This document shows positions 15,163 to 50,534 of a stretch of 64,000 nt of DNA, in pieces. Both the position numbers and the translations under genes were made by a program. Position 1 is the first letter of the stretch. Each line of letters opens with the position of its first letter. The stretch comes from Gracilariopsis chorda (Eukaryota > Rhodophyta > Florideophyceae > Gracilariales > Gracilariaceae): contig NBIV01000147.1 in NCBI GenBank assembly GCA_003194525.1, positions 124,001 through 188,000 on the forward strand, in the 5' to 3' direction. The notes under the pieces are model-generated. The model saw only the letters and a program-made list of their open reading frames with translations, did no database searches and was not told the origin of the DNA.

Positions 15163-15351
15163 TGTAATAGATTAACACCCGCTTAGCATTACGACCATTC
15201 CATATGATTACATACCACCGTACAAGTAGTATACGTACAAAGGTCACTGATGGAGTGACGCTCTGCTGTGTTCCAGTCATCGGCAGTGTGTCGATCCTGG
15301 TTCTATTAAAGATGTTCAGTACCAGTTTGCATCAGCCTTCATTATATTACA
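15163..15351 (-). mobile_element. MITE copy 1, 189 bp, with 5-bp target duplication
   Basis: Non-coding element with short inverted ends TGTAATA...TATTACA, flanked on both sides by ACGTT (15158-15162 and 15352-15356). It is the reverse-complement orientation of the copies at 17149 and 17774, with which it shares nearly its whole length. The matched flanking duplication defines the ends. Confidence 0.75.
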
Positions 15352-15597
15352 ACGTTCTTCTCCGCCTTCGTGCTCGAGACAAAATTAGATATTCATTGTT
15401 TGGTTATCAGAAAGGTAAGGCATTAGCTTATAAATGCCTTTTGGCAGAACGAACCGCCCAAAGGCAACATTTTGGATATAGAGAAATGCTTCTGGAGTGT
15501 AGGTGCTGATTGTACATACACTATATGTCATATAGATCGTGTGTAGTTGGAGAATGCGGGAGAGTCTTTTTGGCTAACATGCACTGAACAAAGATTC

Positions 15598-15620
15598 ACT
15601 TCTCTCTCTCTCTCTCTTTT
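15598..15620. repeat. (CT)n microsatellite
   Basis: Pure CT dinucleotide run just below the 3' end of the LINE-like fragment; on the minus strand it would lie 3' of that fragment. Confidence 0.8.
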
Positions 15621-15670
15621 ACGAGCCCGCATACATTAATTCCTCGTAGCGTGAAGCTGAAGGAGAGCTT

Positions 15671-15922
15671 TCAGTAAAAGCTTTCTCTTCTCAGGAAGGC
15701 CAAGAACTTCAGTGGCTCATGTCGGATCAACCGCTGTATATTTTCCTTACATTTTCTTGGGAGACCAGCTAACATCTCTCTACGGGCTGCATTTGTTCGA
15801 GGGCATCGGTACACAACGTGCTCACAGTCTTTCTTCACGTTCGTTCCCCAGTCACATCTCAAGGTTCTGTTTTCGAGAATCGTCGCCACATGATGTAGGG
15901 TGGAAACGTGTTTGGAGAACAT
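15671..15922 (-). pseudogene. LINE-like ORF2 C-terminal (RNase H/zinc-knuckle) fragment
   Basis: An 83-codon minus-strand frame contains LRCDWGTNVKKDCEH, then VVYRCPRTNAARREML. This is the C...C/W...EH...CP...R pattern seen at the C-terminus of many non-LTR retrotransposon polyproteins (after RNase H). Upstream frames (16084-16440 minus) are broken and not recognisable. It is probably a 5'-truncated LINE relic; a chance match is possible because only this short motif is visible. Confidence 0.4.
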
Positions 15923-17148
15923 GTAGAATTGTGCAAGCGTTACTTCAGCGTTTCTTACTCCTATACCGCAGCCTCAAACTACAAACCAGCAGCCATGCTA
16001 CACTCACTGGGCTACATATGATACGAAGAAAGCATTAGGTCCCGTAGGTGTTTTCAACCGCTGAAGCGTTTCGTTTCCGACGACTATCGTCTTCTTCTCT
16101 GCACCTCTTCATTCACCCTCTGGAGATCGTCGGTTAAGGGGCATACCACGAGAAGGCGCTTCGCATGTACCACAGTGGCCGCCATAGAAACCATTGACGA
16201 CGTCCCTTCGCCCAATCCTGATATCATCGGCGAGATCAGGCAAAAGAACCGGCGCGTAGCTTGCATCATCATCCGACCCAAGCGTAGTCCCCCGAGAAAG
16301 CGCTGGAAAACCCGCGTGCAGAGGCTCCTTTGGAGCTCTTCCTTCGAGGGAAAACATTCAGGGAAACGGTGATTGGATCTTCTTCTGACAACAGGCTCGT
16401 GACCGACTGCGTACGTGCAGTTAGACCGGGGCCTTTTCAAGACTTTCCAGCCTGGTCCACGACCGGCAAGCTGACGATCGCCTGGATGAGTTTAACGAGC
16501 TCCCGGGTCACACATACTCACTTGCAGTGTATGCAAAGCATCATGCATGATACAAAGTGAACGAACTTCGTTGAGCTTGTATCAGGCCGGTAACCAGCAA
16601 CGTTGAACGAAGAGAGAGTTGACTGGTTGCTGGTCACACGGGTGCGAATGTGTTTACTCATGTTTTTGGGGAAATCCATTTCGGAGCGTCGTGCTGATCA
16701 GGGTTTAAAATTGTGTGCCTGTTTGCTCAGCAATTCACAAGAGGCAGGTGCTGTGGGGGCGCTTTGCCACGGATTGCGATACTCATATGACAATAGAAAA
16801 GTGCCGAAGCAGTGCAGAATGGGCATAGTGGTTGTAAGAACAGAAGGCAGAAGGTTGATGAAGATGTGATTTATTACTTTTGTCCTACAGTTTCGGTCCG
16901 AACTAGACAACTTCAAAGCGCAGCGATGAGCAGGCTTGTCAGCGAATAGTGGTCACGCAGCCCAAAACAGGTACTGGGCCTTGGAGATGAAAATTTCATA
17001 AGCCGTTGAGTGCTCTGCCAGGCTGCGTGGCACCCGCCTCCCTGGTAGCCTTTTTGGCAGATGGCTGAGGCCAGGACTCATATGGCCGAGAGAAAGTAAT
17101 GATATTGTGAACATTTATCACTTGGGTGAAGCATCTCTAGAAGGTAGC
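15923..17148. other. no feature recognised
   Basis: Could include decayed upstream parts of the LINE-like relic, but no motif was found. Confidence 0.4.
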
Positions 17149-17337
17149 TGTAATATAATGAAGGCTGATGCAAACTGGTACTGAATATCTTTAACAGAAC
17201 CAGGATCGACACATTGCCGATGACTGGAACAAAGCAGAGCGTCACTCCATCAGTGACCTCTGTACTTATACTACTTGTACGGTGGTATGTAATCATATGG
17301 AATGGTGGTAATGCTAAGCGGGTGTTATTCTATTACA
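17149..17337 (+). mobile_element. MITE copy 2, 189 bp
   Basis: Nearly identical to copy 3 and to the reverse complement of copy 1. Ends TGTAATA (17149) and TATTACA (17337). Its own two flanks do not match each other; its left flank GTAGC instead matches the right flank of copy 3. Confidence 0.75.
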
Positions 17338-17773
17338 TTCACCCCATTCCTAGAATCGATGTCCGCATCGATTCGACATTCTAGAACCACTTCCCTTTTC
17401 ATACCGTTTTGCCATTAGGTCTTACATCAGACACTTGAATTTCTAAGTGCCAAACTTCACTACTCATTAGCGTTTTCAAAACGAGATTCGAAGGTACCCT
17501 GCGTAACAGCGAGTTATAATTCTTCAGTATCACAAGTCGTTCCTCACACTTCCACCGAATCCTAGCGGTCAAAAGTGGAGTTCAGGTTCTTCCGTTTCAG
17601 CGCCTCTGACCTACACTAGGTTCTTGCGCAATTAGCACACTGTCTCTCACAGGTTTGCCTTATACAACGGACTATGCTCTGCAACGACGGCTTCAATGAT
17701 ACTCGGTTTTCCGTTCTTTCTTAGCGTAACTGGACGATTCAAGCGGCATGAATCGACCGTAGATGCTACCATA

Positions 17774-17965
17774 TGTAATATAAGGAAGGCTGATGCAAAC
17801 TGGTACTGAACATGTTTAACAGAACCAGGATCGACACATTGCCGATGACTGGAACAAAGCAGAGCGTCACTCCATCAGTGACCTCTGTACTTAACCTACA
17901 TGTACGGTGGTATGTAATCATATGGAATGGTGGTCGTAATGCTAAGCGGGTGTTATTGTATTACA
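17774..17965 (+). mobile_element. MITE copy 3, 192 bp
   Basis: Direct-orientation sibling of copy 2. Differs from it by a few substitutions and a 3-nt insertion near the right end. Right flank is GTAGC. Confidence 0.75.
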
Positions 17966-26351: not shown

Positions 26352-27899
26352 ATGGCATTGTCCATGCGGAAACAGACCATTCGTCCTAAACGAGCCCAAG
26401 CCAGAGCCAAGCACCTGCATCAAATGAAGCACGTAGCAGTATCTATGCTGCAGCACAAGAAGAGCAAATATAAGATTTGCGACATCGCCAAACGAACACG
26501 ATTAAGCAAAAGCACAATCTATAATCTCAAAAACCTTGTAGACACACAAAACAAAGAGAAGCTACTCCAAATTCTCAGCGATGAGACCTATTTAAAACTA
26601 GATAGTCCTACTGTTCTAACATCAGATGAAGAGAAACTTCTTATTGTGAGCAGAATGTTAAAACCCGCTGAACTTGGATTTGTGGTAGATAATGACACAT
26701 TGAAGTACTTCATGGGGCGTGTAGCTCCCGACGAGCGAGCTGGATGGACGAATTGCACTCCATCTGAGTACGCTATTAGGTCATTTCGCGCAAGACACCG
26801 TGAGCTGAGATACAAAACGCATCACCCAAAATACAACCCGAAACTGAAAGGAAAATCTTATGAGCACATAAAAACTTTCTTCGATGTTTTTGAAAATCTT
26901 GAAGCCAAGCATCCTAGTATCCTTCAAGATCCTTCACGCATCTGGAACACGGACGAGACGGCTGTAGACGGCACGTGAGTTGACGCTCCGAAGGCTTACG
27001 GATAGGCCACATCCAAACATGGAGGCTGCAGGGTCGCTTAAAAGGTACAAGGCGCAAATAAGCACATTTCTGCCGTGTTTGTGTACTCTGCATTTGGGTT
27101 GAAAGCACCACCATTCTTCATAAACGCCGGGAAGAATGTTATGAACAATTGGTTCCATCCAGTTCCAAATATCTACACAAAAAGCTTCACCGATTACAAT
27201 GAGTTTCAGAGATCTCTCTGGATGCCACGTGATGCTGTCGTGAAGGGCACAGAACATGGATCAATGGACAGTCAGATTATTGAAGTGTTTATGAAACATA
27301 TTAACAAGTTTGTACATAAGCACATCCCTGCATCCGAATCATACCTGCTAACTCTGAACGGTGCTTTTTGTCGCAAAGGGATCCGGTGGGTGATGTAGTG
27401 CGAATAAAACGATTTTATCCCTGTTCTGAAGCCGAAAAACACTTCTCACATACTGCCGCCATGTGACAGAAGAATCAACATAACCTTCAAAGTGTCCATG
27501 AGGTATTTGTGAGACCACTTTGGCCGCTTCGCCGTGTCTGAGACCAGAGTTCCGCGGTTCAATCTCGGGTGTGCTGTGTATTCACATGCTACTATATCCG
27601 CGCAAGTAATCAAGAATTCATTCGAGGACACTTGGTTATATCCTTTTAGCCCAGCATTTTCAAATAGTTACAAGGTGGAAGACCTGGAAGGTTGCTCCAT
27701 AACACAGTCCAAGTGTGACAGTATTGCAGACAGGAATCTTCGTGTCCACATAAGAGGAAGCGATGCAGAAGTCTGCAAAAAAGCGCGAGACATATTTGAG
27801 AACGAACAAAGTGATACAGTGAGATCTGGCTACATGGGCAGTGCAACGCGCGCTAGACCAATTGATGAGTGTGCCACATGGGTGACACTGGCTAACTAA
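26352..27899 (+). pseudogene. pogo-like (Tc1/mariner superfamily) transposase relic
   Basis: Three in-order fragments. 26352-26978 has a helix-turn-helix (KICDIAKRTRLSKSTIYNLK, about residues 41-60) and ends in WNTDETAVDGT, the N-x-DE motif of the first catalytic Asp. 27051-27398 has SAFGLKAPPFFINAGK and then LLTLNGAF, where the family has LLLDGH, so the second Asp is replaced by Asn. A third piece to 27899 contains SHILPPCDRRIN (third Asp region, PLD in the family) and SFEDTWLYPFSP. Stops and frameshifts separate the pieces, so it cannot encode an active enzyme. No terminal inverted repeats located. Confidence 0.75.
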
Positions 27900-27952
27900 T
27901 TAATTGACTTATTTATTTATTTATTTTAGATAGGTAGTGAAACCCCGCTACT

Positions 27953-28056: not shown

Positions 28057-28060
28057 TTAC

Positions 28061-28274
28061 CCCCATGACACTTGGGTGACGAATTTTCGTCACCGTATTT
28101 TTTGGGTGAACTGGGTGATTCGGTCCCACTGCACCCTGCGTCGGTGACGGTGCGTGATGCTTGGGTGAACATCACCGACCGTCGGTGAATTCACCCAGCA
28201 TGTCACCCTGGAATGAGCTTGACTAGACGGGCTTTTCGGCTCTTCTACGAAACTTTGGCCAGTTCCGTGCCCTT
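28061..28274. repeat. left terminal inverted repeat, 214 bp
   Basis: Matches the reverse complement of 32436-32649 with few mismatches. It contains several copies of GGGTGA/TCACCC and a palindrome CACCGACCGTCGGTG, likely transposase binding sites. Confidence 0.9.
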
Positions 28275-28488
28275 TACGATCGCTCAATACAACGAATCTA
28301 ATCAACGTCAAGAGCTTTGCGGTGTAACAACGTGAATTGTCGACAACGCGACCTGGTTTATTGCCCACAACTCTATAATTGCGCACAATACATCATCTCT
28401 TTTACATGATGAATACCCTCGCAGAAGAGGCCTTATAATGTACTTTTTTTCAGCTTTTCGAGTTCATGTCTTGGAATTGTTGCTCTGA

Positions 28489-31400
28489 CTAACACGCGAT
28501 CACTGTGCCATGAATTCCAACATGCAGAACATATTGCCTGCCTACATGTGCGGCACCATTGTGTTTGCCTTGAACCTCCCTTTTTCTATATTGCTTCCCA
28601 TTCTTACGAATTGTGTGACTGTACGAACACAAGCAACAGTATGAAGGTTTTGATTTGACCTTTTCATGTGGTAGTGAGCGCGACAAACGTCGTTGTGTTT
28701 CATCAATCCTGTTGTACTTCTCGACCACATTCCGTTTGAACAGTGGAGCAATATTGCTCTCACGCGATTGCTCTTGTACACTTTGAACTATGTTTTGACT
28801 TCGACATGTCTGCTTTGAACACTCCTTTTGCCATAAAACTTTGAATTCTTTTGCAAGTTGACGAGCATAATCTGCGAATGATGATGATCTCGAAACATTA
28901 TGACGAAGCTCCCGATACCCGTACGTGTTCGCAACTTTACAAACGTCGTCAGGGAGCGCACCGCTATTTTTCGCTCGCGATAATCTATGCACCACTGCTG
29001 CATTGTTCACCTGGGCACACAAAAGTCTTCCGATGATGCTCACGATTGGGTTTTCAGAAGCATTTGTTAAACAAAGCGAGGTTAGTGCGCGACTGAACTC
29101 GTCAACGCCACGTTTCAGGTGATTCCAATAGACTAGAACGGTCGGTCTAATCATACGAGCGGGTGGAAGTGTACCTTGCTGCCTGACCAGAGCTCGGTAC
29201 GCCTGGCTGAGGCTGTAGTAAGTTGCGTAAGAATGAAGATCTGTCGCATGCGACGATCTTAACATAGAATCGTATTCTTCAGGAATATGTCGGGCTTCTT
29301 TCCCAATCCAATTAAAGGCAGTTGCACGTATTGCTGCTAATATATAGCTATAACTTGAAAGTATCGACGGAACAAACTCAATAAGAGCGACATAAATTAT
29401 CTCTCCCATTCCACAGTTACTTCCTTTGGCTACAACAAAGCACACCGTTTTCGTTTGAAGGCACATGGCATGGTGCAAGCATTGTAGTCGGTATTCTGTT
29501 GATGGAACCAGGTCATGAAATACCTTTGCAGCATCTGCACTGCGCCCAACCTCAAGAATAAAATTTGCAGCACCGTATCTACGTCGGACATTTCTTGCAG
29601 ATTCGATAGTACGCAAAGCGCTCATGGTCTTGACCTCCAAAGCACATACTGTGCGACATTGTTCATCATCAATGTAAACCATTAAACCGTCTGGACTGTC
29701 GAAAACCATTGCATCAAATCGCGACGCGACCAGCCCTACCGTCCTAATGTAGTCCACGACAAGTTTGCGTTCTCCTTGATTCACCGTTTTTGAACTCCAT
29801 ACTTTGACATGAGAGCAATCAAAAAACTGCGGTAATGCCTTAAGGACCTGTGCCTCATTGAATGTACCTTCCTTCATTCCAGCCGTGCTGACAAGCGGTT
29901 TCATCACCCAGGACTCCAACGACCTGCTGTACAAGTCTTCCCGTAGCTTCTTCATTTCGGCCTGCGTTTGCTGCTCCTCCGAAAGGGGCTCCGAGATAGT
30001 TTCATGTAGCGCAACAGCTCCGCTTTGAACATCAGCTTGCAGCTTGATGATCTTGTCAATGACTTCCCCTTTTCTTAGTGCGCCAGAAAGGGAACAACCA
30101 ATACGGTTCATGGCTGACAAAAGGTCTGCTTTTGTCTTCCTGTTTAGTTCTGCAACGGTAGAGGACAAGAGAAAAGCCTTAGTTTCCTGAAATGGACTTT
30201 CTGCAGTAGCAGACGCAGTATTCATATTAAGAACTTCACATAGACTTTGGAAGCGCAATCGTAAAACGCTCTTAGCCTCTTCGGAACTTTCCGGGAAACA
30301 TGACATACCGTATCCTGTTAGCTTACCCCACACATGCTCCGCTAACGCCCGGATATTGATCTCATAGTTGTTTGCAAGAACGCGAAGAAAATTGCTCGTT
30401 GTTCGCGAAGTATACTGAAAGGCCCTTGCCAAAAACCATCCAGGATCTTCGGATTGCAGCACGGTGATTTCAGTCACCCCAGCGAGTACTTGTGCCACTT
30501 TTGATCGGGATTGATAGGGTAGAAGGACGCCGTTTTGGTATGGGGCGACATTGTGCTCTGCAACTCTCTCATACACACGATGAAATTCTTCAAGATGTTC
30601 CCGGCACTTGAATAATCTGAATCCGGTCTTCGGTATTGGCGTGAACTTTGATGCTTTAAACATTTCATCGTTGTTGTGGTAAACAGCAGCAACACGCCCA
30701 CTATAACTCTCCCGGTAGACAATAGCCTCCACTGGGCGGCCAGAGACAGTATGAGGCTTACGTCGGGCTGAGTAAACTGCACGACAGCCCTTTTCACTCA
30801 CTTCAACACCCTTATGCCGTTTCCGTAATGGTCCGTCGCCGAAAATGAATGGATAGTCCAAAGAGCGTTTGTGTGTGCCAAGCACAGTAGCACCCAGTCT
30901 GTCATTCAGAAAGTCAATTGCGCATTGATGACTATAACCACGATCAGCGGCAAAGGTATGGTCAGTCATCGGTCGAATAGGCCCCGTGGTTGGTACCCCT
31001 TGAAGCAATCGTATGAGTCTCTCCCATATATCGATTGACTTTTCACCTGTTCGTGAATAGTGACTGGCAAGAAAGACAGGGTTCAGAGCAGAACAAATTG
31101 CATTGTTGACTGGACCTAATGCCTTTTTCGGATTGTTCACGTGACTCATTGCCGTCAATTGGGCTACAGCTCTAGATCGTAATCTCTGATGATCGTCGTC
31201 GAGACTGAGAATTGTCTGTTGCGAGATTAACAAGAAAAGCCTATTGATTGCAGCAAACTCGTCTTCCAACTCCGTCGCCAAAGAGTTCGCTCGAAGGGGT
31301 ATATTTGACCAACCACTACCACACTGTTCTACTCGCTGTCTTCTGCCAACAGTACAGCAGAGCGCAGACCACACTTGGTTGTATCGTTCTCCATTTATGC

Positions 31401-31893
31401 CAATCTGAAAGAAGAACTCTTTGTTTTCCCGGGAGGTCATGGTAGAAACACATGAAGAATAAGAAGCTGCCAGAATATGCAGAATTATGATTCCTTTCAG
31501 CTCAACTGAGGAGGTGCTCTCTTGCCTCCTTGCTTTCAAAACTCTGTTCACATTCGTGGCTATCTTTGCCAATATGTATTCTGGTAGAAAAACGTCAAAT
31601 ATAGCTAGGCGGGAAAGATCACATTCACTAACGCCTCTCTTGTCTTCTGATACCTCCCTTATTTCTTTCGTTACGCTTCGAAGAATTGCGTTCGCTTCAT
31701 AAACAAATTGGCGACCAAGTTGGACATTGATTCCGTCAACATCTATCTCGATCGAATCAAAAGGAGAGGAATATGTCCAGTCTTTCAACCCTTGTCCGAG
31801 ATTGCCTCTGTTGCTACCATCAGTACTGTTTGAATTATTCTCCGGCTCTAAGACATCATTGGAATCCAAGCTGAAATCCATGGTGCAGTCCAT
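28489..31893 (-). CDS. piggyBac-type transposase with nested SAP-like and PD-(D/E)XK nuclease domains, 1134 aa
   Basis: Likely nuclear DNA transposase. RNase H-type core: first Asp in LSLDDDHQRLRSR (232-234), then PKKALGPVNNA (255-265), second Asp317 in AADRGY, and GTHKRSLDYPF (339-349). The third Asp931 lies in YWNHLKRGVDEFS, equivalent to the piggyBac YN...GGVD motif, followed by VNNAAVVHRL like the family's N-A helix. A Cys/His tail (CCLC at 1086-1089, then H1111, H1116, H1124, H1128, C1134) matches the position of the piggyBac Cys-rich domain. Asp317 to Asp931 is 614 residues, against about 100 in insect piggyBac. The insertion holds a SAP-like helix pair (584-618, LNRKTKADLL...SGALRKGEVIDKI) and a PD-(D/E)XK set: E680, D727, E753-V-K755 and Q804, in the YqaJ/lambda-exonuclease style. 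All motif residues look intact. The upstream ORF is in the same frame. Confidence 0.8.
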   Translation of the reverse strand: MDCTMDFSLDSNDVLEPENNSNSTDGSNRGNLGQGLKDWTYSSPFDSIEIDVDGINVQLGRQFVYEANAILRSVTKEIREVSEDKRGVSECDLSRLAIFDVFLPEYILAKIATNVNRVLKARRQESTSSVELKGIIILHILAASYSSCVSTMTSRENKEFFFQIGINGERYNQVWSALCCTVGRRQRVEQCGSGWSNIPLRANSLATELEDEFAAINRLFLLISQQTILSLDDDHQRLRSRAVAQLTAMSHVNNPKKALGPVNNAICSALNPVFLASHYSRTGEKSIDIWERLIRLLQGVPTTGPIRPMTDHTFAADRGYSHQCAIDFLNDRLGATVLGTHKRSLDYPFIFGDGPLRKRHKGVEVSEKGCRAVYSARRKPHTVSGRPVEAIVYRESYSGRVAAVYHNNDEMFKASKFTPIPKTGFRLFKCREHLEEFHRVYERVAEHNVAPYQNGVLLPYQSRSKVAQVLAGVTEITVLQSEDPGWFLARAFQYTSRTTSNFLRVLANNYEINIRALAEHVWGKLTGYGMSCFPESSEEAKSVLRLRFQSLCEVLNMNTASATAESPFQETKAFLLSSTVAELNRKTKADLLSAMNRIGCSLSGALRKGEVIDKIIKLQADVQSGAVALHETISEPLSEEQQTQAEMKKLREDLYSRSLESWVMKPLVSTAGMKEGTFNEAQVLKALPQFFDCSHVKVWSSKTVNQGERKLVVDYIRTVGLVASRFDAMVFDSPDGLMVYIDDEQCRTVCALEVKTMSALRTIESARNVRRRYGAANFILEVGRSADAAKVFHDLVPSTEYRLQCLHHAMCLQTKTVCFVVAKGSNCGMGEIIYVALIEFVPSILSSYSYILAAIRATAFNWIGKEARHIPEEYDSMLRSSHATDLHSYATYYSLSQAYRALVRQQGTLPPARMIRPTVLVYWNHLKRGVDEFSRALTSLCLTNASENPIVSIIGRLLCAQVNNAAVVHRLSRAKNSGALPDDVCKVANTYGYRELRHNVSRSSSFADYARQLAKEFKVLWQKECSKQTCRSQNIVQSVQEQSRESNIAPLFKRNVVEKYNRIDETQRRLSRSLPHEKVKSKPSYCCLCSYSHTIRKNGKQYRKREVQGKHNGAAHVGRQYVLHVGIHGTVIAC

Positions 31894-31956
31894 CTCGTTG
31901 CTGAATAGCGATGACCAGACGTCTTCTACGGCAACAGTACGTGCTTCAACAGCATT

Positions 31957-32421
31957 TCATGTTTTGTACTGAGTATTGTCATTTGTTCTGTTGTCAAACT
32001 CCGCTTTAAGGAGGCGGATTTCTTCTTCAGGTATAACATGATTGTGATTACGTTGCTCGGTTTGTGACAGACTTGAAGAACTTTCTGACTGGTTAATGTC
32101 GAGATTGTTGTACTCAAATGAAGGGTCATCATCGCTATTGAAAGAATCATTTGCAGTAGATTCAATACTGTTGATGAATTGCTGAAGATTTTGTTCTGAA
32201 ACGTTTGAAGGCAGTACTGCAAGACCATTTTCTGGAGCGCTTTTGTCAGAAATATTAAAGGAAATTGGAGACAAGCTGTTCTGGATGGGTGAGGATAGTG
32301 ACTGCTGATCATGTGCTTCAGATGTACTGTTTCGCGAGATGGTTAAGTGATCTTGTGAAGCAGAACAACTGGATTTCTTGAGAGGGCTTGGCACAAATGT
32401 GTCAACTTTACGTCGACTCAT
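31957..32421 (-). CDS. N-terminal segment of the transposon gene, 154 aa, ends at in-frame TGA
   Basis: Starts at ATG 32421, only 15 bp inside the right TIR, so it is the natural start of the element's gene. The product is Ser/Asn/Asp-rich and mostly disordered. Its TGA (31957-31959) is in the same frame as the 1134-aa ORF, and the 21 codons between that stop and ATG 31893 are open. Possible readings are one gene with a nonsense mutation, stop-codon readthrough or a selenocysteine codon, or two separate ORFs. No plausible intron spans the stop: the only GT...AG nearby is about 15 nt. Confidence 0.6.
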   Translation of the reverse strand: MSRRKVDTFVPSPLKKSSCSASQDHLTISRNSTSEAHDQQSLSSPIQNSLSPISFNISDKSAPENGLAVLPSNVSEQNLQQFINSIESTANDSFNSDDDPSFEYNNLDINQSESSSSLSQTEQRNHNHVIPEEEIRLLKAEFDNRTNDNTQYKT

Positions 32422-32435
32422 TTTGAACGATGATG

Positions 32436-32649
32436 AAGGGCACGAAACTGGCCAAAGTTTCGTAGAAGAGCCAAAAAGCCCGTCTAGTCAAGCTCATTCC
32501 AGGGTGACATGCTGGGTGAATTCACCGACGATCGGTGATGATCACCCAAGCATCGCGCACCGTCACCGACGCAGGGTGCAGTGGGACCGAATCACCCAGT
32601 GCACCCAAAAAATACGGTGACGAAAATTCGTCACCCAAGTGTCATGGGG
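32436..32649. repeat. right terminal inverted repeat, 214 bp
   Basis: Reverse complement of the left TIR. It ends GTGTCATGGGG and is followed by TTAC. It likely carries the promoter of the gene whose ATG is at 32421. Confidence 0.9.
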
Positions 32650-32653
32650 TTAC

Positions 32654-35233: not shown

Positions 35234-38200
35234 TTATGGTTGTGGAGGGATGCAGACCTGAATGGCTTCAGGCAGCACTGGGTTCATGAGAGCCACAGGC
35301 ATGGGATGAATTGTGTGCGCATTCGTGGACGTAAACTGCGGGTCATGCAGGAGCAGCACATGGTCGTTCGTTCGAACCGGCGACAATGCAACATACAACT
35401 GATCGGCGCAGATGAAGTTGGATCTCACATCCGCAACCAAGCCATCCAAGGTCTTTCCCTGTCCTTTTTGAATGGTAGCTGCAAACGCCAAACGAATGGG
35501 AAACTGCATTCGAATCATGCGAATGTGTGGGAAAGAAAACTCAAAGTCGATACAATGTAGGAGCTGTCGTTCCAGCACCTGTCTGTTTTCGTCAAATCGA
35601 GCCACCTGCATCGTAAATTGATCGACACGCACGACTACGAACAGCTTTCCGTTGACCACAGCGGGATTCATCACGTTTCGAATTACCATAACTGGCACAT
35701 CGATCTTCAAGTCCAGGTTATGAGGCGGTACTCCAGTAGGCGCATACTGATATGCAAACTCGGGGACCATAGTACTGGCGAAGTAAGACTCTGGGTTTTG
35801 TCCACAATCAGGTTGTAGAGTCGTCGCGGACGGAAAACTGAGGCACTCACCAGTAACCAGATCCAGCGCTGCCACATTATGTTATTCGACCAACTGGTTT
35901 GTGGATGCAATGAGCATTTTGCTAAGATCCACATCCTCCTTGCATCGTGTTGTGAGCCACTTACACAGGAATTTGTAGGTGGTTTGCATGCCACCGGTAG
36001 ATCTGAGTGGTAATGGAATGTTGTTGGATATTGTGTTTCGTGCAATGGAACGTAACAGTGACGCAAATGCCGGCTTTGCGTACTTTTTCGGTGAGATACA
36101 GCACTTGAACCGAGCACAACGTTTACAGATCACTCTTCCACGGCAAGTCTATAAGAATGTTTGTGTACACTCGTCTCACATTTCTACTTGGATCGGTCTC
36201 CATGCACACTTGCGGCACCACTGGAATCAACTGGGTGTAGTCGCCGGATAGAACGATGGTCAAGCTCCCAAATGGAGGGGGGTTTTCCATTCCACTGCAG
36301 TGAAGATCTTAGATCAACGCATCCATCAGTTCAAATATCTTTCGTGAGAGCATCGACGTCTCATCCAAGACGAGCAGTTGGCGTACCCTGACTGCAACGT
36401 TGACGCATTTGGTACCATTCGCCTGTCTCGAGTTGTTGTAGCTCGATTCGCCTCAGTCAATGCTGCATGATCCTGCTGTAGGTGTTGGAAGAAGAAGCTG
36501 TGATTGCGAAGCAGTTTTCCACCATGCCATTCTGGGATCTCCACCACACGTCGATACATTTCTTGCTTTCGTTACTGCTCATCTCCTGTATGTATGTCGG
36601 TACATAGCGCCTCCCAGTTCTCGACGGCCAATTTCTCTGGGTCTGCGCCTTGTTGGTATAGTGTGACAACCAGACATTCTAGCTCGGAGAACGTGCTGGA
36701 GATCTGCAATTCTTCTTGAAATGCAATATCAAAATCGGATCCGTCCGCGAGCAGTCCGATTGCAATCGCGGTTTCACTATAAGTTTCATACTGCTGTTCA
36801 TTGAAAGTCCTTGCGCCTTCATAAGAGCTCGAGCCGTGATTCATGAGCAGCAAGCGCAGATCAAATAGCTCAATGTCCCACGGTGAGACACCTCTGAGCT
36901 TTGCGACGCACTGCTCGTCTTCCGTGCGCTCTACCACGTACATGGGCAAATCGGAGTCGTCTTTGGTCACTTGAGTGCTTTCTACGTCGTATTGGTTAAG
37001 CATGCGGGCAGAAAAAGTGCGGTACGATCGCACGTTTTCGAATTATGCAACGTACTCGAGGTTCGCATATGCTTCGAGCCCTGCAAATTATTTCTCCAAC
37101 GTAGACGGCTGTGATGCGGAATGGATTTGATTTGTACCTCTGAGCAGAAATTTTCGCTCTCCTTCCAAGTGAATGGCCAGTCGCTCTACCTTTGGTACGA
37201 TTTGAACATGTCGAAACGCGAAAATTCTCCAAGCTGCATTGACAGCGCCCACCACACGCCCTCGCATGTATGCACAAATGTCGTTCTGCACTTTCGGCTC
37301 TTGTTGCTGCTCGTTCTGTTTACCTGTCTCATTAGCACCACTCACATTGAGCACCACTTTCTGAGCTTTGGGCTGCTTGGACGTTTACCTCATCAGATAA
37401 GCCACTGCGCCTCCTCGTTGCGTGCGTTATACGTTGATATGAGAGCTTTACTTCTTGTTCAAAGTTGGGTTTTACGTTTTACGCACAATCCTGGGGTCTT
37501 GTTGCCTTCTTCTGCCGTAGGTTACGCGATTCGTGCCTTTTTCAATGTACTTCTCTGGCACAATCATGTTGCTGTCTTATCCCAACTTGCACCACCCAGC
37601 GTGATTCCGGCAATAGAAGGAGTGGTGGTGCCTGTGCATGGAACGAATGAGGCCACAAAACGCGTCATCATCGCCCGAAAGGGGAAGTTCTGCACGAATC
37701 AGCTCGTCGATGACATCAACTTCTTCAATCACGCCTGCTTGGAGCCACACGAGCATGTGGTGATGAAACACATTGCGCTCTTGAAACTGGAGCCTTAATG
37801 CAGGCCCCAGGCACTTCATTCCAAAGATGTGCTACGAATTCTTCTACAAGTCCTTCATGAAGTCGTTTGCGTACTGTTTTTACACCCTTGCAAGCAGATT
37901 CGGTTGATGAAACGGTGGACGGCGGTTACTCTTTGCCGTAAACGCGCTCCGAATGCTGGTATCCATACCAAGGCACTGGATGTCGTCTCGCCAGATGTGC
38001 ATGTTGATTGTAATACACTGAGAAGGCGGTCGTCTCGGGGCCACTATTGCCTGTACATCCATGCACTTGTTATTTCTGTATGCTGCTGAGCTGACCAAGT
38101 CGTCGGGCAGAAAGATGCGTCCCATTTGTGCGAACTGTGATGATGAAACATGACCTGGTTGCTGTTGTGCTTGCTGGATCTTTTGCTCTTGTACAAAAAA

Positions 38201-40938: not shown

Positions 40939-43900
40939 ATGTCGCACTTCGACTTTGAAACGGAATCCACCTCTGGAATGAAAATTCCTCGTTTCCATGG
41001 TAAACGTGGTGATGCTTATATGCTGTGGCGTCACCGTCTTCGTGCTGCATGCCGTATTAATGGTGTCTGGAATGTCGTAAATCTCTCTGGGGTCCAATCT
41101 ACCACAGATATTTCAACTCAAGACACAACTACCGCAGGTAGTCGCACTGAAATAGCAACTCCACGTATCATTGCGAAACGAGAAAAGGCTTGTGTTATCA
41201 TCATCTGTGCTCTTGGTGATGCTCCATTACGCGTAGCCATGGACGTGGATGATGATCCTGCACGTATGTTGCAACTCTTGGATGGACGTTATGCCTCCAA
41301 TAGGACTGTATCTAGAATTGCAGTGCAGACACGATTGTTCCGAATGTCGTACAGCGGTGAGAACATGTCCAGCTATGTGGATCAATACACGGCATTGTTC
41401 GCTCAGTTAGACCGTATGGGCAAGGATGCTGCTATACCGGAGTCTCACAGGGCACCTATGCTACTTGCTTCCGTTGATCCGAACAGTTCGTTGGAGTCCA
41501 CGGCTGCTACACTACGTACAAAGTACATATCAGAACTCACTTGGGACTATGTGGCAACCACTTTAATCGATGATGTTGGCAGTAGTACCTGTGCTGTCAC
41601 TGAAAACCAAATGTTCCGGGGAGCATGGGCTGTTTTGCAGGGTACCTCTGCAAAAGCGCATATGCACGTGTGCGCGAACCCAACGTGAAACTGGCTTCTG
41701 ATTGGCTACTGCAAATGTACATATGCAACGTGGTGCGTACAAGTGGTATGGCATAACTGGATCGGTTGGACACACCCACGTGTCCAGCTACTACAGTGGT
41801 CACCGTGTACGTTGTGTGCAGGGGATACTGGTGAAGTGGTTGACACCTGGTACAAGTGGTACAGCAGTGGTTGGTACAATGGTAAGGTGCGCATGCACTG
41901 TCAACAGGTTTACCTATGCACGGGTATATTGATGACGTGGGTGTTGTGTGCATTGCCACTTGATGACATGGCAATAACACCACAGGTTACGTGCCGACTT
42001 ACCGTGACGTGTTGACTTACCGTGATGTGTTGGCATGTGCTGGCGTGTGTTGGAGTCGTGAATTTGTGCCTTGTCATGGTCATGTGTATGCACGTAACTA
42101 TTACGGAACGTTGGTGCGTTGTTGTGCGTTGATATAATGAGGTTGTGCTGAGCTTGCTATGTCATGTTAGAGGATGATTGGTAGTATTGAGTGTCCCTGC
42201 TTAGTGGTTTAGGTTTTACTTGTAGTTGGTGTTCCCGCGCAATTCGAGTTTAGAGTGGTATATAAGATGTGCCTGAAGGACCTCCAAGTAAATCCAAGCT
42301 AGAGCTGGCGAACTTCCCTTCCATCCCCTCAACTTCCTTACAACTTTCAACAGATGAGTACAATGCTCGTCTAATCAGTTCTTCTAGTTCTGGACGTACG
42401 CAAAGTCGAAAGAACAACAGAAGCAAAGGTTCTGGGGGTTCACGTGTGTCCCAAAACTGTAGTCACACTCACATCAGGGACGGAAGTGACTCTGATGATC
42501 GGCCAAGTACAGCTGGTAGAGCATACGTTGTGTCCAGTAACCGAACTTATCACTGTGAATTCTGTGATCGTGATGGTCACACAAAGCGCGTATGCCATGT
42601 GAATCCCAATAACCCAGATAATCACTTACCCAAACGCATCCTGGATAAGCTTAACATCATATCGAAGAGCAAATCTGGGACGTCCAAGTCTTGCAATAAG
42701 CCGGCTGGTAGTTCATCAAAGATTGCGTTATGTCGTATGGCACTGGAAAAGTCTTCCATCGTACCTCCCGACTGTTGCGATATGGACACGTATGCCGATA
42801 GTGGTGCTACATCACAATTTTTCATTCGGTGTCTGCGTTTATTCCCGAGTCCTTGCACAAAGTAGAAACTCGAACCATCATGCTTGCCGAGAACACTGAA
42901 TTATGTGCAACGCAGCGGGGTGACATAGTATTTCCATTTGAGTGCGCAAACCTAGGATTGACTGATGTCCTGTTCGTTCCAGAACTGGAATACAGTTTGG
43001 TGTCCGTAGGATGCTTGGCGGACAAGGGCATTGAATCCTTCTTTCGCTCAAGTGAAGTTCGTATCACCTTGGACGATGGGTTTGTAGTCGGCAGTGGCCA
43101 TGGCGATCGACGCTCGGGGTTGTACACCTTACCCGATCCGATATTGCAAGGTACCAACCCAACCTCACCCTCTTCACCAACTAGTGGAGATCATTGCATG
43201 AAGACATCGGAGTCCAGTATTGCTAATCTATGGCCTCGGCAACTTGCCCACATCAATGCGCGCGACCTCCAGTCAGCTTACAAACATGCTGAGTCGGTGC
43301 CGAAGATGTCGGAAATGGAGGAGATCTGCCACCCGTGTATGCTTGGTAAGGCGCATAAACTTCCGTTTCCTGACAAATACGACCGAGGATCAGCCGTAGG
43401 TGAGGTGTTACATTCCGATATACTAGGACCCCTTGTACCGTCATTCCCACAAATGTTTCAGTATGCCTCTACCTTCCTTGACGAGCATTCACGGTATGCA
43501 CTATTAGGCTTCATGACCCATAAAAGTGAAATTGTTGTATTCGATGCAGTTGAGCACACGTTCCAGCAGCTTGGAGGAGTGGCCATTGCGAAAGTGCACT
43601 CGGATACTGCCGAAATGTATATTGCGTTGCAGCTGAGCCCTGCTAACAATCTTCAAGACACTTCTTTCTCTCCTCCGTATACTCCGGAACACAATGCAAT
43701 AGCCGAGCGCATCAATCGCACTATGGAGGAAGCTGCTCGAGCTTTGCTCATACAGGCAAGTATCCCAGAGTGCTGGTGGCCATACGCATTAAAGCACGTC
43801 ATACATGTTTGCAACAGGTTTTGTCACTCAGCATCTGGAAGCAGCCCCTACCTTTTGATGACTGGTTCAAAACCATCCCTGAAGCATGTCAAAGTGTTTG

Positions 43901-46067
43901 GGTGTGCTGCGTTCGTGCTTAAGATGAAACCGGATACCAAGTTCGAGTCTCGTGCACTTGAGGGAGTGTACTTGCAGACTCTTGAGCATGGTGTGTATGA
44001 TGTTTTAGTCAATGATAATGATTAGATTCCACGCATTGTAAAGTCTCGGCATGTGACATTTGACGAGTCCAAGTTCCCTGGGGCATAATTTCTGGAACAT
44101 GTTATGAGTGATGAAGGTGCATCAGATGATACTTATGAATGCGCAGATCACTCTGAAATGGATACTGAGAGTGGTAGTATGGTTTCTGTGGACAATCCAT
44201 TCGACATTGAGAGTGATACGGAACATATTGAATCCACTCCTATACCAACGGCACAGAGCACTGAAAGCGGTGCCAAGCATCCAGATGATAGCGAGCATAC
44301 GTCTGATGACGATTCGGACTCAGACAATGATGTTGAGCATGCCCCAAGTGTTAGTCAACATACTTCGGACTCTGAACTCTTACAGAAATTTGACCCAGAA
44401 CCACGCTATCGTCACCGTACAGGACGTGCACAGGCTAAGTGGTGGTACATGGCCGGTATTGCAACGTCACAAATGGATATTACTACCACTGATGAACGTA
44501 CTCTGGGCGAAGCACTGTCTGCTACACCACTTGATCAGAGCCTTTGGAAGAATGCCATTGATGAAGAACTGACATCTCTGGAGGAGAAGAACACTTGGGA
44601 GGAGGACGAATCACCTGCCTCTCAGCCTCTTCCTACTCATCTCATTTTAAACGTCAAGCGCGATGCCAAAAGATCGGTTGATAGATTCAAGGCTAAGGCT
44701 GTGGCTGGTGGCAATCACCAGACATATGGGCAGAACTACATGGAGACATATGCCCCAGTGCGGCCATTTAGTCTGGTCTGCATGCTACTGTACGTTGCAA
44801 TTTGTCTTCAGATGTATGTGGCTTAAGTAGATGTTAAGATTGCATTTCTCAACGGTGAGCTTAAAGAAGACTTGTGGATGATGTCGCTGCGTGGTGTTCC
44901 TGGTGTGACTGCAAAGTGCTATAAGTTACTCAAGGCTATAAACGGTTTGAACAAGGCTCATCTAGTATGTCACAACAAGTTCAACGCAGACATGAAGAGG
45001 TTGGGTTTTGAGGAGCTACCCAGTGCACCGTGCGTATTCAAGCGAAAGGTTGGAGATGGCATGTATACCTACATACTCGTATACGTGGACGACATTCTGG
45101 TGTTCACGCCAACTCTGGAGCAACGGACTACATTGTTAGAGGAGCTCAAAACACTCTATGACCTCCGCATTGAGAACCGAATCACTCTGTAACTTGGCGT
45201 GGAGCTGTCATGGAAGATAGGTAGAGCCGGACAACTCCTTGGTGTCAAGCTGGGACAGTCGCTGTATATTGAAAGTATACCTCGACGATTTGGTCTCCAG
45301 AACGCTAAGCCAGGACCTAGCCCTATGGTAGAGTGCTTCTTCACATCTCTAGCAACGGAGGAAGGCAAATCACCAATGGATGTGCAGTTGTACCAGCAGA
45401 TGATCAGGTCTCTGCTGTACATGGCACTACGGACTAGGGTGGATATACTGGCTCCAGTTCTCATCCTGGCTCATTTTCAGAGTGCTTCTACCGCTTGGTT
45501 TCACAAAGCTGTGAGCGTGTGATCAGATATCTGTGTGGAATGTGACAGCATGGGCTATGCTAGAGGCCTGGATCGCTAGGTCTACATGGTTTTCTGGACT
45601 CTGACTACGCTGGAGAGACTACGAGTCGGAAGTCGATGTCCGGGTATATCGGTAAACTTTGGTCAGCAACCTGCTGGTATGGTGGTAGAAAACAAGCGTC
45701 AGTTGCGCTATAAACTGGCGAGGCGGAGTACTATGCTCTGACTTTGGCTGCACAAGAAGTGGTATGGGTTCCTGTTGTGCTACGGGAATGCGGTTTTGAC
45801 GTGAAAACTTTGGTTTCTCTACATTCTGACAGCCAGTGCGCATTGGAGTGGGCTGGTGGTGAAAGGTGCCCTTCTAGTCGTGCTAAGCACATTGATGTAA
45901 AGGTTCACTTTATCTTAGATCTCATAGGAGACAATGTGATTAGTGTTCAATACGTCCCAAGTGAGCTGAACGATGCCCATTTACTCACCAAGCTATTGGG
46001 ACGTATGAGTGTTAATGCAATTCTCAAACGTCTTGGTGTTGGACAGGAACTCGAGAAGGAGTGTTGA
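40939..46067 (+). pseudogene. Copia-1 copy 1 gag-pol, broken
   Basis: Ty1/copia order Gag-PR-IN-RT-RH. Gag opens MSHFDFETES; a zinc knuckle C-x2-C-x4-H-x4-C sits at about 42560-42601; protease DSGAT follows at about 42798. A -1 shift near 42826-42829 leads into integrase (HSDILGP; VHSDTAE; NAIAERINRT). RT shows VDVKIAFLNG and YVDDILVF (about 45084); RNase H ends LGVGQELEKEC. Inactivating changes include the Copia-2 solo LTR in gag, the frameshift, in-frame stops at 44023 (TAG), about 44086 (TAA), 44824 (TAA) and 45190 (TAA), further breaks at 45520-45640, and VAL-stop-TGE at about 45710. It cannot make an intact polyprotein. Confidence 0.85.
41574..42352 (+). mobile_element. solo LTR of Copia-2, 779 bp
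   Basis: TGTTGGCAG...TTTCAACA with 5-bp inverted tips (TGTTG/CAACA), flanked by GATGA on both sides (41569-41573, 42353-42357). The uninterrupted target is seen in copy 2 at about 48199-48210. It diverges slightly from the full-length element's LTRs, so it is an older insertion reduced by LTR-LTR recombination. Confidence 0.92.
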
Positions 46068-46785
46068 ACTTTAGAAGTGGTCGACTGCCTGGCCAACCCC
46101 CACAGAAGGTCTCAGCTTGGTCTAAAACCAAACCTTTAGGGGACGATGGGCTCGTTTGGAGCCCCTTGCTCCAAAAGCGCATATGCCCCTCTGCTCAAAC
46201 ACAACGTGAAACGGCAATGTGATTGGCTAGTGAAAATGCTATATGCATTTTATACCGTACAAGTGTTATGGAGTGTATGGTACTGGATTGTAGATATGCA
46301 CAAGTGGAGCAATGTGGTTGGTCCAAGTGTGCGCGCAGTAGACGGTTGTGCTGCAATGCTGAAGATGCGAATGGGAGCTGTATTGGGAGATTTGGGACAA
46401 TGTGCGTTTGTGGGCTGCGCTGAGGGGTTGGAGTGCCAGGATGGAAATTGTTGATTTTTTAGAGCTGCTTCCAGACCAAGGGACTGGCAATGGATTTGCT
46501 GCATTGATTGATTGAGTTATTTGAAATTGTGACCCTCTAAATTGTGCGCTCTTTTCGTGTACACCTGCACACACGAATAACGTGTAGTGTAATGGTGCGA
46601 CCACCGCCGTCGCTTGCTGCGACGACGGTGAAGTGTGTGCAGTAGGGTATATCTAGATTAGCTTTGCCTGGCATCGAGTAAACTGGTCGACTAAGGCTGA
46701 TAACCTTCCTTGTTTCACTTTCTTGTTTGTTCTTCCTCCCTTTATTTCGTACCTTTTGTTTTCATAACCAGCGTGAGTTGCGATA
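46062..46785 (+). repeat. Copia-1 LTR 2, ~724 bp
   Basis: Shared by copies 1 and 2 (internal-LTR-internal tandem form). Differs from LTR 1 by scattered substitutions and a 1-nt deletion; near-identical to LTR 3. Confidence 0.65.
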
Positions 46786-49261
46786 GGTTATCGGTCCAGA
46801 GCGTTGACTTTTTGCAGACGTCGCACTCTACTGATATCTATGTGGATTCTATGAAGACTGGTTTTTCTTTCGCGCAGGTACGCGTTGCGTTGCGAGCGAG
46901 CGAATCTTGTAGAAGTCGAGTGGCAGTGGTGAAAGTAGGCAAAGTGTTCAGGGACTCGTCTCTGGTAAACGGACCTGCACCTGTTCCGATCCCTGCTTCT
47001 TTGCTCCAGCGCACAAGGACGACCGCGCTATTTTCCGGCAAGGGACTAGAAGGGGTTAACTGGTGAAAGCTTGTCGCGTCAGCTACTAGCCTCCCTTGGA
47101 CGTCTCGTACGGATTGTAAAGCTCCTCGCTCTGAAGTGCGTAGAGCAGGATTGGTCGCAGAAACTGCATCCCGCCTGGAGAGAGTTACCAGGGACCAAAG
47201 GATTCGGATCTGGAGGGTAGCGGGGATAGTATCTCCTGCCATTGCGCCCGTCATAAGAAGTTATGTTTGTGTCCAGGCTCGTATCAGTATGCCCTGTGAG
47301 TATACTCTGGGCGTTGAGTACCCGAACTCCGCCTGTGATCGCGTACGAGACGCGTCTTTACAGGCGTAGTAGACTTGGTTACAAGGTCTCCGCTGATGTT
47401 TTCGCTGTTGAGTGCTTGAGATTCTTCTCCACTCCATTGTTTCTGGGTCTTTGTGTAACAGAAGCCTTGAAATCCCTCCTTCAGCTTCACTACATTGTGT
47501 GGATATCACTTCATTTGATATCTACATAGTTGCTTTTGTTGCTTTTCTTTGGTTCTAGTCCTGTAGGAACCATGTCGGACTTCGAAGTTGAAACGGAATC
47601 CAGTTCTGGAATGAAAATTCCTCGTTTCCATGGTAAACGTGGTAATGCTTATATGCTGTGGCGTCACCGTCTTCGTGCTGCATGCCGTAATAATGGTGTC
47701 TGGAATGTCGCGAATCCCTCTGGGGTTCAATCTACCACAGATATTTCAACTCAAGACACAACTACCGCAGGTAGTCGCACTGAAATAGCAACTCCCCGTA
47801 TCATTGCAAAACGAGAAAAGGCTTGTGTTATCATCATCTGTGCTCTTGGTGATGCTCCATTACGCGTAGTCATGGACGTGGATGATGATCCTGCACGTAT
47901 GTTGCAACTCTTGGATGGACGTTATGCCTCCAATAGAACTGTATCTAGAATTGCAGTGCAGACACGATTGTTCCGAATGGCGTACAGCGGTGAGAACATG
48001 TCCAGCTATGTGGATCAATACACGGCATTGTTCGCTCAGTTAGACCGTATGGGCAAGGATGCTGCTATACCGGAGTCTCACAGGGCACCTATGCTACTTG
48101 CTTCCGTTGATCCGAACAGTTCGTTGGAGTCCACTTCTGCAGCACTCCGTACCAAGGACATATCGGAACTGACTTGGGACTATGTGGCAACCACTTTGAT
48201 CGATGAGTACAATGCTCGTCTGGTCAGTTCTTCTAGTTCTCGACGTACGCGAAGTCGAAAGAACAACAGAAGCAAAGCTTCTGGTGGTCCACGTGTGTCC
48301 CAAAACTCTAGTCACACTCACATCAGGGACGGAAGTGACTCTGATGAACGGCCAATTACGGCTGGTAGAGCATACGTGGTGTCCAGTAACCGGACTTATC
48401 ACTGTGAATTCTGTGATCGTGATGGTCACACAAAGCACATATGCCATGTGAATCCCAATAACCCAGATAATCACTTACCCAAACGCATCCTGGACAAGCT
48501 TAACATCAAATCGAAGAGCAAATCTTGGGCGTCCAAGTCTTGCAATAAGCCGGCTGGTAGTTCATCAAAGATTGAGGTATGTGGTATGGCACTGGAAATG
48601 TCTTCCATCGTACCTCCCGACTGTTGCGATATGGACACGTATGCCGATAGTGGTGCTACATCACAATTTCTCATTCGGTGTCTGCGTTTATTCCCGAGTC
48701 CTTGCACAACGTAGAAACTCGAACCATCATGCTTGCCGACAACACTGAATTATGTGCAACGCAGCGGGGTGACATAGTATTTCCATTTGAGTGCACAAAC
48801 CTAGGATTGACTGATGTCCTGTTCGTTCCAGAACCGGAATACAGTTTGGTGTCCGTAGGATGCTTGGCGGACAAGGGCATTGAATCCTTCTTTCGCTCAA
48901 GTGAAGTTCGTCTCACCTTGGACAATGGGTTTGTAGTCGGCAGTGGCCATCGCGATCGACGCTCGGGGTTGTACACCTTACCCGATCCGATATTGCAAGG
49001 TACCAACCCAACCTCACCCTCTTCACCAACTAGTGGAGATCATTGCATGAAGGCATCGGAGTTCAGTATTGCTAATCTATGGCCTCGGCAACTTGCCCAC
49101 ATCAATGCGCGCGACCTCCAGTCAGCTTACAAACATGCTGAGGGGGTGCCGAAGATGTCGGAAATGGAGGAGATCTGCAACCTGTGTATGCTTGGTAAGG
49201 CGCATAAACTTCCGATTTCTGACGAATACGACCGAGGATCAGCCGTAGGTGAGGTGTTACA

Positions 49262-50040: not shown

Positions 50041-50054
50041 GGTTATGGGCCCAG
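50041..50054 (+). other. Copia-2 primer binding site (half tRNA-iMet type)
   Basis: GGTTATGGGCCCAG directly follows the LTR's terminal CA, the same arrangement as Drosophila copia. Confidence 0.85.
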
Positions 50055-50416: not shown

Positions 50417-50467
50417 TTGTTGTTGTTGTTGTCGTTGTTTTTGTTGTTATTGTTGTCGTTGTTGCCA
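50417..50467. repeat. (GTT)n-rich leader tract
   Basis: Imperfect TTG/GTT repeats in the untranslated leader about 70 nt before the gag start; repeated at 62369-62419. Confidence 0.8.
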
Positions 50468-50534
50468 TTTTTGTACTACTTAAGTGCCGTAGGTCTTTCA
50501 TCGCACCTGTGCTGTTTGTTGAAATCTACCAAGC

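Follow-up and report, generated by a model that had tools for sequence, protein, structure and literature searches.

Introduction

In the published structure of the piggyBac transposase, an insertion domain (residues 372-433) follows the fifth strand, is situated between D346 and D447 and lines the DNA channel (PMC7351741). The enzyme closes the excised end into a hairpin, and this hairpin is opened again before integration takes place (PMC6900584, PMC7351741). Accessory exonucleases in transposons are already known, as described for ISL2EU (PMC4482050) and for Kolobok lineages (PMC9587614), and the functions of such additional transposon open reading frames (ORFs) are stated to be still unknown (PMC4482050). 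Here we analyze 64,000 nucleotides of Gracilariopsis chorda (contig NBIV01000147.1, positions 124,001 to 188,000; "the window"), which hold a transposon with one long ORF. We consider it probable that this ORF encodes a piggyBac-like transposase in which the insertion domain of the RNase H fold has taken up a nuclease, whose likeliest job would be resection of the donor ends after excision.

Results

A nuclease between the second and third aspartates in two lineages

An earlier note, made from the letters of the window, had proposed a piggyBac-type DDD core with a PD-(D/E)XK nuclease, of the lambda-exonuclease/YqaJ type, between Asp2 and Asp3. This arrangement finds support in two divergent lineages of the same genome. 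The residues D232-D234, D317 (in ADRGY), E680, D727, E753-x-K755, Q804 and D931 (in GVD) are all where the note had placed them, on an ORF that we correct to the minus strand (28489-31893). A tblastn search with the ORF against its own genome (one genome of 91.3 Mb in 1081 contigs, with only the best candidates scored) returned 55 matches, several per element and on many contigs, at 34-96% identity besides the window itself. The inverted repeats of the window element are 95% complementary over 230 nt, three flanking bases included. As these repeats flank the ORF and its genome matches reach down to 34% identity, the ORF is far beyond chance. We refer to the window and the places L009-L028 as lineage 1, and to the L048-type elements with their relatives L049 (C67), L050 (C130) and L068 (C374) as lineage 2. 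Besides the window ORF, the only match without an internal stop across nearly the whole query (35-1105) is L016 (C177), which is intact and encodes 1351 residues.

The second lineage emerges from a genome search with the Pfam YqaJ profile (PF09588). It gave 12 matches, nine of them above the cut-off by themselves, and seven of these nine, at 32.7-35.0 bits, belong to a single 3.9-kb element of the L048 type. L049 and L050 are also among the 12, as are C246:41843 and C134, whereas L068 came from a separate search. This element has seven full-length copies including L048 itself, all at least 99% identical in DNA, and the copies C19 and C18 have no stops in the frame of 1115 residues. In L048 the YqaJ match covers residues 565-745 (31.3 bits, cut-off 22), and the tail of the DDE_Tnp_1_7 profile (303-349) follows the nuclease at residues 844-889 with 13.4 bits, below its cut-off. 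The same profile search reaches lineage 1 at the genome match C36:41468 (19.3 bits, below the cut-off of 22), which is the nuclease of the copy L015; L015 itself gives 17.1 bits, also below the cut-off. Within alignment A1 (the window and 65 segments, with the near copies L009, L010, L012, L014 and L018 and the segment L028:4109-4297 excluded), YqaJ is matched in 3 of the 66 segments, many of which miss the domain.

The order of motifs in L048, L049, L050 and L068 is LDDD, (A/T)DRxY and then the nuclease (NE, CSPDGI, VEIKT, Q). GVD and the Cys-rich tail follow in the same frame in L048 and in L068, the tail of which is altered, and in a second frame in L050; the frame of L049 stops earlier. 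When lineage 1 is compared with lineage 2 by hhalign, 401 columns align, from the nuclease through GVD to the first Cys pair, at a probability of 98.6 and an E of 9.4e-16. Because both lineages align across these parts and share their order, the inserted design most likely predates the lineage split. Shared order among the paralogues also refutes an artefact, in which two adjacent genes or an assembly join are mistaken for one. We regard that explanation as practically negligible in the face of single open frames of 1134, 1351 and 1115 residues, the same order on different contigs, and near-identical copies at different sites.

The SAP-like motif that had been noted ahead of the nuclease is present as a patch, to which the profiles lend weak support. 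No SAP or related profile was above its cut-off: in L016 FANC_SAP reached 17.2 bits against a cut-off of 23, in the window Rho_N reached 14.6 bits against 24.9, and L013 matched neither.

The lineage-2 element has also given rise to two derivatives of 855 bp by internal deletion (L072 and L073, on C202 and C21). The break falls at a short repeated motif, and the flanks are ATAT in both; as the two share 99% identity and yet lie at different sites, they are probably a non-autonomous form moved in trans.

Conservation of the catalytic residues and possible selection on the nuclease

Conservation was counted over the twenty lineage-1 places L009-L028; L002-L008, which are the same places as loci among L009-L014, were excluded. 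Stops occur in the aligned stretch of 19 of the 20 places, and losses of residues are therefore to be expected. Among the copies that cover each position, the core retains Asp232 in 17 of 18, Asp317 in 16 of 19 and Asp931 in 19 of 19, and the nuclease retains E680 in 20 of 20, D735 in 18 of 19, K755 in 17 of 19 and Q804 in 16 of 19. The catalytic aspartate of the nuclease is accordingly D735 in SPD(G/A). D727, the earlier choice, was rejected, as it is kept in 15 of 19 paralogues and is absent from the intact L016. The four motifs E, SPDG, E-x-K and Q are those of YqaJ/lambda exonuclease. In ten rows drawn from both lineages E and SPD are invariant (10/10), the E of E-x-K is kept in eight, its K in nine and Q in nine, so that E-x-K and Q, on which the earlier note had staked its proposal, are mostly kept in homologues of both lineages.

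Mean column identity to the window over 15 divergent copies is 0.50 overall. It is 0.46 in the nuclease (670-850), 0.66 and 0.60 in the core stretches 216-350 and 905-1000, and 0.34 in the SAP-like patch. Nonsynonymous (dN) and synonymous (dS) divergence was estimated by a simple counting method on 22 pairs. For eight between-subfamily pairs the nuclease gave dN values of 0.16-0.56, with dS saturated in seven and 3.1 in one. In L016/L026 the ratio of the two (omega) is 0.29 over the core and 0.27 over the nuclease; in L016/L024 the nuclease gives 0.15 on 109 codons, and L017/L018 shows zero synonymous change in the nuclease. The between-subfamily pairs support selection on the nuclease, as far as saturated counts can.

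Two results weigh against the main reading. Nuclease omega is 0.56-1.88 in 11 close pairs, with no sign of selection; these pairs look like decay after insertion. Moreover, E753 is kept in only 15 of 19 lineage-1 copies, being lost in L012, L017, L018 and L027. The latter loss would suit a nuclease fold that serves as a non-catalytic scaffold for oligomerisation or for holding DNA. Such a scaffold is nevertheless highly improbable in our view, as E and SPD are invariant in both lineages and all four copies without E753 carry stops. Two of the four, L017 and L018, look like one duplicated stretch, because flanking DNA on one side also aligns; on the same ground we rejected this pair as a dead-nuclease element that still transposes.

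Relation of the split core to piggyBac

The case for piggyBac is strongest in the N-lobe. The profile DDE_Tnp_1_7 (PF13843) matches residues 97-179 of the window protein (profile 4-90) with 17.0 bits and L015 (profile 4-101) with 23.1 bits, above the cut-off of 22.4; it is matched in 4 of the 66 A1 segments, many of which miss the domain. When the N-lobe of both lineages was aligned with the ordinary piggyBac transposases of the same genome, the score was 35.1, a value reached by 0 of 194 answered column shuffles (200 were run and six gave no answer), with 16.4 for the reversed control. Asp1 and Asp2 fall exactly in register with their canonical counterparts in this alignment. For the C-part of lineage 2, the best of four PDB matches is piggyBac 6x67 (E 0.08), which puts the GVD aspartate on residue 447. 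A DDD triad with its third Asp in (G)VD thus stands in register with known piggyBac members, and the termini are CC-rich and carry inverted repeats (CCCC..., CCCTAG...). The ends of piggyBac are CC-rich in like manner. Asp1 and Asp2 are 79-85 residues apart in five nuclease-bearing proteins, versus 89-90 in four ordinary piggyBac transposases of the same genome; Asp2 and Asp3 are 504-622 residues apart in those five, versus 122 in the ordinary four.

The Cys-rich pattern of the tail is in frame in L048 and in six of the seven lineage-1 tails displayed (L009, L012, L013, L014, L016 and L017, not L011). Below its cut-off of 24, zf-Tnp_2 is matched in L050 (16.0 bits) and L048 (14.7 bits), with no match in L016 or L013.

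Target site duplications were sought at 21 lineage-1 places (the window and L009-L028), and both ends were found in 14, which excludes L010, L017, L018 and L022-L025. The perfect duplications among them, all 4 bp long, are TTAC, CTAG, TTAG, TTAG, ATAT, TTAA, TTAA and TTAT. In lineage 2, 7 of 7 full copies and 2 of 2 of the 855-bp derivatives have ATAT as their duplication. All perfect duplications have a central TA (TTAN, CTAG or ATAT), and the element ends are CCC...GGG in both lineages.

Against an assignment to piggyBac stand several observations. The C-lobe score is at chance (reached by 60 of 200 shuffles), though its Asp lands on the canonical third Asp. Four hhalign tries with a first canonical piggyBac alignment were not significant, two PDB profile searches with lineage-1 lobes found nothing, and a whole-protein PDB search of L048 puts 6x67 (E 0.32) after 12 matches to the Arg/Gly-rich N-terminus. 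The tails of L016 and L013 match IBR (14.8 and 16 bits, below cut-off) instead of zf-Tnp_2. Duplications are perfect in just 8 of the 14 lineage-1 elements, five being off by one base and one by two, and a strict TTAA is seen in only two of the eight perfect cases. As the length of the duplication fits 4 bp and the strict TTAA sequence does not, we chose the name "piggyBac-like". Other searches added little: PDB searches with the window protein and other lineage-1 alignments gave nothing useful, a phage tblastn gave two weak matches only, and scans of PHROGs, viral contigs and genome contigs were unproductive.

A separate DDD superfamily that arrived at GVD, a Cys-rich tail and 4-bp duplications by convergence could accommodate these results. 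In its favor are profile matches to ordinary piggyBac that are weak or fall short of significance, the chance-level C-lobe and the relaxed or ATAT duplications. We consider it quite unlikely, in view of the N-lobe score that no shuffle reached with both aspartates in register, the above-cut-off match of L015, the GVD aspartate on piggyBac residue 447, the zf-Tnp_2 matches of L048 and L050 (below cut-off) and the CCC ends. The profile comparison is clear for the N-lobe and falls to chance for the C-lobe. On balance the core is piggyBac-like and probably piggyBac, which is short of proof.

We infer that the RNase H fold is split and that the insert adopts a nuclease fold. The site of the insertion, which the earlier note had found odd, is less so, for piggyBac itself has its insertion domain at that place (PMC7351741). 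The same report describes Y439 and N440 of piggyBac as touching the hairpin formed from TTAA (PMC7351741). W923 and N924 of the window protein correspond to them by position, and L048, which uses ATAT, has Y and S there; a correlation of these residues with target choice is suggestive only.

Empty sites and the fate of the target

Three paralogous empty sites, for L048, L011 and L050, allow the junctions to be read. The repeat into which L048 is inserted has a Harbinger-like ORF (labeled by eye), and the uninserted copies of this repeat have a single ATAT in 5 of 5 fetched (98%-identical ones only). On the right side of the junction the match extends over 17-20 bases, ATAT among them, until the repeat ends. 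L011 (TTAA/CTAA, one mismatch) sits at a TTAA of a repeat, and the uninterrupted site occurs elsewhere 11 times exactly and 23 times with up to two mismatches, with 0 occurrences for the reversed-pattern control. The insertion point of L050 is the central ATAT of TGACCTCATATGAGGTCA, a sequence that 7 of 7 copies of a different element family contain. At all three, the flanks of the junction match the empty site, and the duplication is exact at L048 and L050. The matching flanks and exact 4-bp duplications speak against resection of the target side at the sites examined.

This outcome bears on whether the nuclease acts in transposition chemistry itself, by trimming the 4-nt flap after hairpin opening, nicking the second strand or preparing the target. 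It sits in the insertion domain, the region of piggyBac that lines the target-DNA channel and touches the hairpin (PMC7351741); this location would invite such a part, as would a target preference that differs by lineage (mostly TTAN versus ATAT). The matching flanks and exact duplications, with the one mismatch at L011, are at odds with it. Furthermore, piggyBac performs all steps with its RNase H site, and lambda-type nucleases are exonucleases. We deem a part in the chemistry unlikely.

Other observations concern insertion sites. L011 and L016, different lineage-1 elements, occupy the same TTAA of a host repeat, each in its own copy of that repeat and in opposite orientation. Near the borders of the ordinary piggyBac-type elements L035-L041 (DDE_Tnp_1_7 at about 170 bits) lie palindromes TGACCTCATATGAGGTCA, the centre of the palindrome being the target of a lineage-2 element; no TTAACCC/GGGTTAA pairs were found at the ends of these ordinary elements. 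At C37:221101-241353, a window-type element probably holds a large nested insertion, as its inverted repeats stand 20 kb apart.

A proposed role at the donor site

Resection of the donor ends, which is the job that we favor for the nuclease, can be set out as follows. The DDD site would excise and integrate the element through end hairpins in the fashion of piggyBac, while the nuclease would hang beside the channel that in piggyBac holds flanking and target DNA. Lambda-type exonucleases degrade one strand, and in this style the nuclease may, after excision, degrade one strand of the broken donor ends. Such resection would spoil the complementary 4-nt overhangs that are needed for seamless resealing. 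Repair would then be driven to use a homologous template and so restore the element, and cut-and-paste transposition would thereby gain copies. We advance only tentatively, and with rather less than even confidence, a fuller version in which two active sites share one fold: an exonuclease of the transpososome would act on the donor flanks and couple excision to homology-directed refilling, and the insertion domain would have drifted to ATAT. Hairpin processing, another task proposed in the earlier note, would not call for an extra nuclease, because piggyBac opens its own end hairpins.

A further task proposed for the nuclease was an attack on competing DNA (viruses, rival elements or plasmids), as a selfish defence module. 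The Pfam name of the family, YqaJ-like viral recombinase domain, may be cited in its favor. The nuclease is, however, fused inside the transposase core and is not a separate gene, and no ORF resembling an immunity partner stood out in an inspection that was not thorough (ORFs of at least 80 residues in the window element; at most the three longest of at least 250 residues in L048). We therefore judge a defence module very unlikely.

State of the window copy and its surroundings

The window copy is damaged by a frame break in the tail and by an upstream in-frame stop. Of the C-terminal Cys-rich tail that the note had described, the CCLC half is in the frame of the ORF and the second half, WCRTCRQAICSACWNSWH, is out of frame in this copy. 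About 176 codons upstream of the ORF are in the same frame, behind the stop at 31957-31959. In a comparison of six copies this stop is common to the window and L012 and is a sense codon in L009, L010, L011 and L014. A 69-nt GT-AG intron that would link an upstream ORF of 154 residues to the main ORF was considered and dropped, because these four near copies read straight across the stretch. L012 lies at another site and has the same stop; the stop-bearing form therefore gave at least two copies. It may have spread through help in trans or through a downstream start. The features of the element are collected in Table 1.

Table 1. Features of the transposon in the window (positions count from the first letter of the window; residues are those of the 1134-residue ORF)
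Feature	Positions	Strand	Basis or remark
Whole transposon, 4589 bp	28061..32649	n/a	CCCC at 28061 to GGGG at 32649; ends CCCCATGACACTTGGG
Target site duplication TTAC, left	28057..28060	+	direct reading of flank
Target site duplication TTAC, right	32650..32653	+	direct reading of flank
Terminal inverted repeat adjoining gene 3' end	28061..28287	+	repeat comparison
Terminal inverted repeat adjoining gene 5' end	32423..32649	-	repeat comparison
Transposase open frame, 1134 residues	28489..31893	-	ORF list, stop-free
Upstream N-terminal coding stretch, same frame	31957..32421	-	cut from the long ORF by in-frame stop 31957-31959
DDD-core N-lobe, residues 97-430 (helical domain, Asp1, Asp2, start of insertion domain; inferred bounds)	30604..31605	-	profile comparison
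Asp232 codon, catalytic Asp 1	31198..31200	-	conservation, profile register
Asp317 codon, catalytic Asp 2	30943..30945	-	conservation, profile register
Inserted nuclease module, residues ~478-850 (inferred bounds)	29344..30462	-	lineage alignment, paralogue conservation
SAP-like helix-loop-helix, residues ~580-620, weak	30034..30156	-	FANC_SAP/Rho_N profiles below cut-off
Glu680 codon (N-E of the nuclease)	29854..29856	-	conservation
Asp735 codon (SPDG)	29689..29691	-	conservation; takes the place of D727
Glu753-x-Lys755 codons	29629..29637	-	conservation
Gln804 codon (YRLQCLHH)	29482..29484	-	conservation
DDD-core C-lobe, residues 905-1010, with YWNHLKRGVD	28864..29181	-	conservation; matches of relatives
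Asp931 codon, catalytic Asp 3	29101..29103	-	conservation
Cys-rich zinc domain, first half CCLCSYSH	28615..28638	-	in ORF frame
Cys-rich zinc domain, second half WCRTCRQAICSACWNSWH	28505..28558	-	other frame in window copy

Other mobile DNA surrounds the element. Adjoining it at 26352-27900 are the remains of another DDE transposon with broken frames, helix-turn-helix matches below cut-off and the motif WNTDETAVDG. A broken-frame fragment at 35234-36133 (QKGQGKTLDG...QLYVALSPVR) resembles the C-terminus of a Helitron/PIF1-like helicase. At 39000-64000 lie Copia-type retrotransposon ORFs (labeled by eye) in tandem, with 43409-52047 and 55360-64000 being 99.7% identical over 8.6 kb; this is a recent duplication with a 12-kb period or an assembly repeat. 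Three copies of a 190-nt repeat at 15163-17965, 92-96% identical and in both orientations, are possibly a miniature inverted-repeat transposable element. As to the host, the genome has 15 matches to the light-harvesting family, some of which are broken or exon pieces, and seven to the phycobilisome-linker family, and these suggest a red alga. A fungal or oomycete host was rejected; elicitin and Zn_clus gave no match, in searches that gave none in control genomes either and so do not demonstrate absence.

Discussion

The nuclease described here is part of the transposase chain, at the place where piggyBac lines its DNA channel, and its catalytic residues are common to two distant lineages with intact recent copies. 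The role of the nuclease can thereby be tested on a single protein by a single point change. The arrangement also suggests that there is room for a complete second enzyme at the place where DDE transposases have their insertion domain, and studies of how target choice is set gain a piggyBac-like clade that uses ATAT. A search of the open PMC literature, by titles and the openings of abstracts, gave no description of a piggyBac transposase that contains a nuclease; most subscription papers, and Repbase, lie outside that search.

With the piggyBac superfamily (Trichoplusia ni piggyBac, PDB 6X67/6X68; PMC7351741) these elements share the DDD core, the place of the insertion domain, the C-terminal Cys-rich zinc domain and the 4-bp duplication. 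The spacing of Asp1 and Asp2, 79-85 here, compares with 78 for D268-D346 of piggyBac, in which the third Asp stands in KGGVD (PMC7351741). The spacing of Asp2 and Asp3 differs, as it is 504-622 here with the nuclease and 101 for D346-D447 of piggyBac (PMC7351741). Also unlike piggyBac, duplications here include TTAC, TTAG, TTAT, CTAG and ATAT besides TTAA.

ISL2EU of the PHIS superfamily likewise is a transposon that carries a YqaJ nuclease (PMC4482050). There, as its description has it, YqaJ is a separate ORF beside a DDE transposase with THAP, the duplication is a 2-bp AT, the ends are GG and the reports are from animals only (PMC4482050). The elements here have neither the separate YqaJ ORF nor the AT duplication nor the GG ends. 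KolobokE is the other near case, a DDD/E transposon with a lambda-exonuclease-like PD-D/ExK nuclease, and Kolobok duplications are 4-bp TTAA (PMC9587614). Its nuclease is reported downstream of the transposase domain, and Kolobok ends as 5'-RR and YY-3' (PMC9587614). The elements here depart from the Kolobok set of TTAA, RR...YY ends and a nuclease behind the transposase: they end in CCC...GGG and have the nuclease between Asp2 and Asp3. To the YqaJ/lambda exonuclease family (PF09588) they are tied by E, SPDG, E-x-K and Q, with L048 above the cut-off. What sets them apart from that family is that the nuclease is inserted in the catalytic domain of another enzyme, to which lineage 1 adds extra sequence and the SAP-like patch.

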